Shown piece by piece: positions 4,394 through 64,000 of a DNA stretch of 64,000 bases. Both the position numbers and the translations under genes were made by a program. The stretch covers positions 26,588 to 90,587 of the forward strand of contig CAJBLH010000027.1 in the NCBI GenBank assembly GCA_903953895.1, read 5' to 3'. Under the pieces are notes generated by a model. It saw nothing but the letters and a program-made list of their open reading frames with translations. It ran no database searches and was not told the origin of the DNA. The DNA is from an uncultured Desulfobacteraceae bacterium (GTDB taxonomy: Bacteria; Desulfobacterota; Desulfobacteria; Desulfobacterales; Desulfatirhabdiaceae). The first letter of the stretch is position 1. Each line of letters opens with the position of its first letter.

Positions 4394-4651
4394 TCATCGA
4401 TCCGCTTTGTGGTCGATAGGGTTGTATGCGGGAGCTGCTTTTTTCCAACCAAGCGGACAGTTCATAACATCAGGATAGTAACCCCTTGGGCTTCTGCAAT
4501 AGTATCGATAGCTGGGATCGCCTACAGTCATTTGCAGCGCCGGTGTTTTCGGTATGAGGGGCCGTGCGACTTCAACGGTTCTATAGTAGGTCCGTTGGTA
4601 AGTCCTGGGAGGAGATTCGTAAAAAAGAGGGAGGGGATAGATTTTTTTCGG
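4394..4651 (-). pseudogene. C-terminal fragment of a small exported-type protein with a YYC-x-GYYPDV-x-CP-x-GW motif
   Basis: Manual reverse-strand translation: ...FYESPPRTYQRTYYRTVEVARPLIPKTPALQMTVGDPSYRYYCRSPRGYYPDVMNCPLGWKKAAPAYNPIDHKADR*. No start codon before the in-frame stop at 4652-4654. Confidence 0.45.
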
Positions 4652-4692
4652 TCATCCCCGACCGATAACGCACCCAAAATCATTATCTGCAA
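4630..4692. repeat. Hairpin-containing dispersed repeat, copy 1
   Basis: AGGGAGGGGATAGATTTTTTTCGGTCATCCCCGACCGATAACGCA...; related to 63635-63696. Confidence 0.6.
4632..4660 (-). terminator. Possible rho-independent terminator of the thioesterase gene
   Basis: On the minus strand GGGGATGACCGAAAAAAATCTATCCCC is followed by TCCCTCTTTTTT, downstream of the 4695 stop. Confidence 0.45.
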
Positions 4693-4694
4693 AG

Positions 4695-5099
4695 CTATAG
4701 ATATTCACTCAGTTTCTGTTTTAGTTCTATGGGAACCGCGATGGACTTGTTTTCCTCATAATCGAAACAGACCTGAACGGATTCGCCTGTTGCAAATGTT
4801 GCGGATTCATCTGTCTGGTCCGCCAGACGATAGGCCAGTACAAAACTCTTGTTCCCAATTTCCTTTACCCACATCTCCAGGGAGACCAGGCTGTTCAGTT
4901 TGATGGGGCTGATAAAGTCGCAACCAATGTTAGCCAGAATAAATGGAAAAAGTGAGAAACCCGATCCTCTTGATATTTTCAGAAAAAAAACCTTTCTTCC
5001 TTCTTCAAAATATGTGAAGAATACCGCGTTGTTGACATGTCCCATGCTGTCAATATCTCTAAATCTTACTTGAATTTGGGTCTTGAATATGTTTTTCAC
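4695..5099 (-). CDS. Acyl-CoA thioesterase, 4HBT/YbgC-FadM-like
   Basis: IQVRFRDIDSMGHVNNAVFFTYFEEGR hot-dog thioesterase signature. Confidence 0.85.
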   Translation of the reverse strand: MKNIFKTQIQVRFRDIDSMGHVNNAVFFTYFEEGRKVFFLKISRGSGFSLFPFILANIGCDFISPIKLNSLVSLEMWVKEIGNKSFVLAYRLADQTDESATFATGESVQVCFDYEENKSIAVPIELKQKLSEYL

Positions 5100-63334: not shown

Positions 63335-63634
63335 GAGACTGTTCTCCTTTCTTTTGCGTTGGACAATAACGATTCCCAAAATTATCAGGTCCAAATACTT
63401 CCGAAAATGTACGAGATTTTCAGCGGCTGTTGAGTTGTGAATCACCTGCGATATCACGCGGCAGTTCCTGCCCGATTATGCATTCAGCCATACTGATTTC
63501 ATTTGCCATGGTTATATTATTCATCATGGATGAACAGTTATTTGATCGGATGTTTTCGCCTATCATACCAGATTGAAACCTGCACGCACAACCAAGAAAC
63601 TATAGACTTTCAGAAAATTTATTTCGCAAGGCAA

Positions 63635-63696
63635 CAGGGAGGGAATAGGCCTTTTTCGGCCATTCCCGACCGATAACGCAGCGAAATTATTTTTCT
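63635..63696. repeat. Hairpin-containing dispersed repeat, copy 2
   Basis: AGGGAGGGAATAGGCCTTTTTCGGCCATTCCCGACCGATAACGCAGCG...TTTTTCT; related to 4630-4692. Confidence 0.6.
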
Positions 63697-64000
63697 GTGC
63701 GGCCGGGCAAGGTTGCGTGTTTTAGCGGGTGTGAAGCCCGCCCCGGAAGGAATAGCCATCCACCGGGTAGCGAGTTCTTGGACAAGAGGGGGTGACCTTT
63801 TGAGTTAAGCGTAGAACAGCGAGCCGGCAGGCCGTAAGCTGTAAAGCTGAAGTGATAGAGCCTCGAAATAATTATTCACGGGAAAGATGACGCTGTGGAA
63901 ATTGCGGAAATCAATAAGAAATCAGCGCAAAGTGGCGAGTTGGTGGATTTTCCCCGGGGTCTGAGAGCATGGCATGTCGGATATAGCGAACACGTGGTAA
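63697..64000 (+). mobile_element. 5' portion of a bacterial group II intron (domain I), truncated by the window end
   Basis: Starts GTGCGGCCGGGCAAGG (GUGYG consensus) and continues with CGGGTGTGAAGCCCGCC...GGGGTCTGAGAGCATGGCATGTCGGATATAGCGAACACGTGG, typical of intron RNA; no ORF. Confidence 0.75.

Follow-up and report, generated by a model that had tools for sequence, protein, structure and literature searches.

A new family of miniature inverted-repeat transposable elements in Desulfobacterota, one copy of which is interrupted by a group II intron

Introduction

Among the closest described systems are the Correia/NEMIS elements of Neisseria, which fall into a size class of about 107 bp, carry terminal inverted repeats of about 24 bp with 5'-TA-3' ends, duplicate their target and are present in more than 100 copies (PMC2229807; PMC10969869). 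The RUP element of Streptococcus pneumoniae is 107 bp long, uses a TA target and occupies intergenic positions in about 108 copies, and its mobilization in trans by IS630-Spn1 has been proposed (PMC2229807). The Chunjie MITE of Geobacter uraniireducens measures 178-235 bp and occurs with many partial copies (PMC10969869).

Here, we characterize a repeat from an uncultured Desulfobacteraceae bacterium (GCA_903953895.1, contig CAJBLH010000027.1, positions 26,588-90,587 of the forward strand; this whole stretch of 64,000 nt is referred to as the window). We identify it as a non-autonomous miniature inverted-repeat transposable element (MITE) of ordinary architecture that constitutes a new family, as judged against the nearest known elements by their descriptions. 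Likened in this way, it resembles Correia/NEMIS in size class, terminal repeats, TA ends, target duplication and copy number, and in both cases a transcript would form a long stem-loop (PMC2229807; PMC10969869). It differs from Correia/NEMIS in its host phylum, Desulfobacterota, in an inner hairpin that varies but covaries, in asymmetric core motifs of its own and in its longer forms, which measure 115-125 bp with no 155-bp form seen. RUP shares the 107-bp length, the TA target, the intergenic location and the copy number, but whereas the ends of RUP are common to IS630-Spn1, no such partner was found for the MITE described here. Chunjie, another MITE family with numerous partial copies, comes from a related bacterial lineage and is set apart by its described size. 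We found no report of the present family in the open-access literature searched, the coverage of which is incomplete.

With a probability of about 0.9, we favor the reading that the MITE was spread by a transposase at TA targets (type II) and that the copy at 63.6 kb of the window was later invaded by a group II intron via EBS-IBS pairing. The features of the window are collected in Table 1.

Table 1. Coordinates of the two MITE copies and associated features in the window
Feature	Position	Strand	Evidence
MITE copy, subfamily B, recognizable positions 36-107	4628..4699	+	nhmmer 3e-18
4HBT thioesterase gene	4695..5099	-	ORF list; Pfam 4HBT_2 2e-17
MITE copy, subfamily A, positions 1-97 of 107	63601..63697	+	nhmmer 7e-27; covariance model R1 96.3 bits
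Inner hairpin region of MITE, GGGAGGGAATAGGCC / GGCCATTCCCGACC	63637..63678	+	fold z = -3.2; helix 3 pair counts
Group II intron, 5' part	63697..64000	+	Rfam RF02005 at 63733-63969, 135 bits
Putative EBS1, GGAAAGAT	63881..63888	+	8/8 pairing with ATTTTTCT of MITE right arm, G-U allowed

Results

Two hairpins of the window belong to a dispersed family

An earlier note on this DNA had pointed to matching hairpins at 4630-4692 and 63635-63698. Both are present there, and their alignment is far better than expected by chance: a search of the host genome (5.47 Mb in 315 contigs) that used the 4.6 kb region as the query returned 40 matches, including the 63.6 kb copy at E = 6e-10, so the similarity between the two is not a two-copy coincidence. 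The element of about 60 nt that the note had delineated reflects a real similarity but covers only the right two-thirds of a palindromic MITE of 105-110 bp. The 4.6 kb copy reaches 4699, ending in a terminal CTATA, and the 63.6 kb copy spans from 63601 to the point at which the intron cuts it, 63697.

A covariance-model search of the host genome, as the note had proposed, yielded 110 matches at E <= 0.001. A few of these represent the same copy on opposite strands, and as 150 candidates were scored, the resulting estimate of about 105 copies is a lower bound. The 17-nt terminal motif, with up to two mismatches, occurs 181 times in the same genome, versus six times for a reversed control. Together with covariation and relatives across the phylum, these copy numbers (about 105 or more) strongly support the structured dispersed element that the note had suspected.

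Architecture and folding of the MITE

Each MITE consists, in order, of TATAGACTTTCAGAAAATTCATTTCGC, AAGGCAGCAGGGAGG, a variable hairpin, CGACCGATAACGCA and a right arm ending in GAAAGTCTATA. The commonest form in the host genome, TATAGACTTTCAGAAAATTCATTTCGCAAGGCAGCAGGGAGGGAATAGGCCTTTTTCGGCCATTCCCGACCGATAACGCAGCGAAATTATTTTTCTGAAAGTCTATA, is 107 bp long and is found in five identical copies at unrelated sites; overall, lengths range from about 105 to 125 bp. These dimensions, combined with 110 model matches, conform to the short (<500 bp), near-identical dispersed copies expected of a MITE. The terminal sequence is TATAGACTTTCAG, and the terminal inverted repeats form arms of about 27 bp that contribute 24 outer pairs, with 92% of cells paired, as expected of a MITE with terminal inverted repeats. 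Between these repeats and the inner hairpin lie two conserved asymmetric stretches, AAGGC..GGAGG and CGAYCGATAACGCA. A second subfamily has the ends TATAGCTTTCAAGATAAT, and hybrids of the two subfamilies exist (locus L029).

Unusual arrangements were observed at several loci. Head-to-tail tandem arrays with a period of 87-88 bp, in which adjacent copies have a shortened terminal repeat in common, are present in the uncultured Desulfobacteraceae MAG Umea1_bin-2529 (L043:1-240 and L046:1-220). At L163:328-580 and L164:2950-3258, MITE copies hold another long palindromic insert of about 150-190 bp, which is probably a second, unrelated miniature element. The 253- and 309-bp forms were considered as ancestral long elements and rejected, as they are MITEs with another palindromic insert.

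The stem pairing described in the earlier note is maintained through double substitutions, as judged from both the fold and the pair counts, and all helices covary. In an alignment of 40 copies, the proposed fold pairs 91.5% of cells, and 158 cells are changed on both sides, compared with 63 +/- 5 in shuffles and 10-31 when the structure is slid along the alignment. At least one double change is seen in 20 pairs, nine of them among the 12 pairs of the inner hairpin (helix 3). For a full copy taken as one strand, the fold has z = -8. Since the outer stem doubles as the terminal repeat of a transposon, its covariation need not mean that RNA or DNA folds; the inner hairpin is the more telling part of the signal. 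In the reading that we favor, this hairpin and the asymmetric motifs AAGGC..GGAGG and CGAYCGATAACGCA are maintained within the MITE family.

A G+C-rich stem near gene ends, and the REP-like size of the part first seen, could also suggest intrinsic terminators or REP sequences that came to look alike by convergence. An intrinsic terminator has a G+C-rich stem followed by a T-run, but here the stem is followed by GACCGATAACGC and the T-run sits in the loop. REP and REPIN sequences are short imperfect palindromes with a 5' GTAG or GGAG and a genomic RAYT (Y1) transposase, against which the long inverted termini and the TA insertion argue. Five copies that are identical throughout their 107 bp, long terminal inverted repeats included, as well as the empty sites and nested insertion described below, make convergence extremely unlikely.

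Insertion at TA and genomic position

At locus L112, one MITE is nested within the hairpin of another. The uninterrupted host sequence, inferred from sister copies, reads GGGAGGAGA-TA-ATACTG, and the occupied site reads GGGAGGAGA-TATAGAC...GTCTATA-ATACTG, with a TA target and TA on both sides. At each of three further loci (L004, L020 and L015), three to five congeners have an orthologous site without the MITE. Type II MITEs are marked by insertion at TA, by duplication of the TA and by the existence of empty sites; here, the duplication is clean in the single nested case of L112, and the orthologous empty-site junctions are too diverged for base-by-base proof. The MITE thus groups, by analogy, with type II MITEs that use a TA target, among them Correia/NEMIS and RUP (PMC2229807; PMC10969869). 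All 48 full-length host copies lie outside long ORFs, and in 13 of the 48 an ORF of at least 120 aa ends inside the MITE.

A transposase acting on the terminal inverted repeats of about 27 bp would have spread the MITE, inserting it at TA with duplication of the TA; mobilization in trans, and the family to which such a transposase belongs, are points that we infer. Among the DDE_3 transposase loci examined, we found no autonomous transposon with MITE ends. As candidates for an IS630/Tc1-type partner, the two DDE_3 loci of the host genome have other terminal repeats, and 19 DDE_3 matches in 15 element-bearing genomes likewise lack MITE ends. Orphan terminal repeats were also considered as transposon ends, but most of those inspected are truncated MITEs, and the sampled terminal repeats belong to MITEs or their fragments. 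An unlikely alternative is that, in this phylum-wide family, terminal repeats borrowed from an IS would not suffice for mobility, which would instead require either an unrecognized transposase or recognition of the hairpin together with the core (AAGGC..GGAGG / GAYCGATAACGC).

Distribution across the phylum

The MITE is carried by seven of the eight genomes of the genus, host included. The exact 25-nt terminal pattern is found in 29 of 292 genomes of the order, representing 12 of 138 genera, with no control match in the listed genomes, and the covariance model is positive in 13 of 395 genomes of the phylum, including other families. Named records with the MITE are MAGs of Desulfobacteraceae and Deltaproteobacteria; the viral contigs and plasmids searched gave no match. 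In three genomes of two genera (L151, L152 and L153), MITE insertions have identical flanks and inner hairpins that have diverged yet remain paired. These common flanks indicate that the insertion was apparently inherited from a common ancestor.

Such a shared insertion, along with core motifs conserved across families of the phylum and a hairpin kept through covariation, would fit an element now retained by its hosts as a structured RNA or protein-binding site, with the asymmetric core selected for a cellular role. We consider this unlikely: within the host genus, recent identical copies and empty sites attest to mobility; many copies are truncated; and a conserved core would be just as likely if transposition itself required it.

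A group II intron interrupts the 63.6 kb copy

The 63.6 kb copy matches positions 1-97 of the 107-bp consensus with 98% identity. The intron start GTGCGGCC breaks into the right arm, ATTTTTCT|GAAAGTC, at 63697, and the G at this position is assignable to either the MITE or the intron. The fading of similarity at the intron start that the earlier note had reported is borne out, as GTGCGGCC replaces the last 10-11 bases of the element and the right end GAAAGTCTATA is thereby displaced. Both the contig and the window end inside the intron, leaving the 5' junction only in view; additional copies of the intron are present in the host genome and in relatives. Similar to mobile group II introns that choose their targets by EBS/IBS pairing, the window intron has a GUGCG start, an Rfam match to domains I-IV and a motif resembling EBS1 that can pair with its 5' exon, and it differs in being cut off by the contig end.

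The putative EBS1, assigned together with IBS1 from pairing alone, matches the right arm at all eight positions, an outcome with a probability of about 2e-4 for a random 8-mer when G-U pairs count; five to six positions pair in two further intron copies of the host genome. A match between AATAATT and AATTATT exists that could represent EBS2-IBS2, which we do not claim because it overlaps IBS1. The three RVT_1 loci of the host genome, considered as sources of the intron's maturase, lack a group II intron RNA match. Next to the reverse transcriptase ORFs of these two loci, L038 and L039 (443 and 557 aa), lie similar 127-aa ORFs, and L038 has a further 228-aa ORF ending in a variable domain of the WRLP..YVRAVRGG type. 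The 127-aa ORFs look like a DGR accessory protein, and we take these loci to be probable diversity-generating retroelements, not intron maturases.

Position within the right arm of a MITE could alternatively mean that the hairpin is a preferred landing site of a hairpin-targeting (IIC-like) intron, the other copies being unoccupied targets. In at least 29 of the copies fetched, the identical 15-nt site stands empty. L034 (C20) and L035 (C217) hold internal fragments of this intron at distances of about 45 and 125 bp from complete MITE copies, a proximity that may come from mobile DNA accumulating within shared intergenic stretches. At L092 (G006:C225), seen from the 5' side only, the intron is preceded by 16 nt (GAAATTATTTATCTGA) that are similar to the right arm, with no MITE core before them. 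Against hairpin targeting, 22 of 23 five-prime junctions of the intron lineage, examined in seven genomes, lie outside any recognizable MITE, the window junction being the sole exception. Across these 23 junctions we found no shared upstream hairpin, and most lack one stronger than in shuffles. Group IIC introns insert just downstream of a stem-loop or terminator, but about 29 nt separate the inner hairpin from the window intron, which lies downstream of it and within the outer stem. Of about 30 matching sites, one alone holds an intron. With EBS1 pairing 8/8 with the actual site and poorly with the 4.6 kb copy, hairpin targeting is very unlikely. On the sequence evidence, the putative IBS1/EBS1 pairing (8/8) is the better explanation of the site and the presumed cause of its choice. 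The 63.6 kb copy would thus have received the intron, after the MITE had inserted, by ordinary EBS-IBS pairing with the right arm, and the insertion of the intron in a MITE appears incidental, a matter of chance.

The 4.6 kb copy and the thioesterase gene

The 4.6 kb copy comprises the right two-thirds of the MITE with its CTATA end, the left arm having been lost or diverged. Covariance model R1 gives 46.7 bits over 4599-4699, with the outer stem largely unpaired. The terminal CTATA (4695-4699) supplies the TAG stop codon (4697-4695) of the thioesterase gene. At the equivalent of the intron site the copy has CATTATCT, of which about five of eight positions pair with EBS1. As a member of the other subfamily that has lost the left arm and whose fit to EBS1 is poor, this copy is not a good unoccupied target, contrary to what the earlier note had proposed. 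The same intron lineage is found elsewhere in unrelated flanks, and the intron-target pairing that explains the 63.6 kb site is largely lacking here.

Discussion

Our analysis describes an abundant repeat family of Desulfobacterota that is carried at gene ends and that can supply stop codons and palindromes. The ends and core of the MITE provide a handle for finding the transposase. Furthermore, the strong covariation of the inner hairpin within a mobile element turns the reason why Correia-like elements keep a structured core into a testable question.
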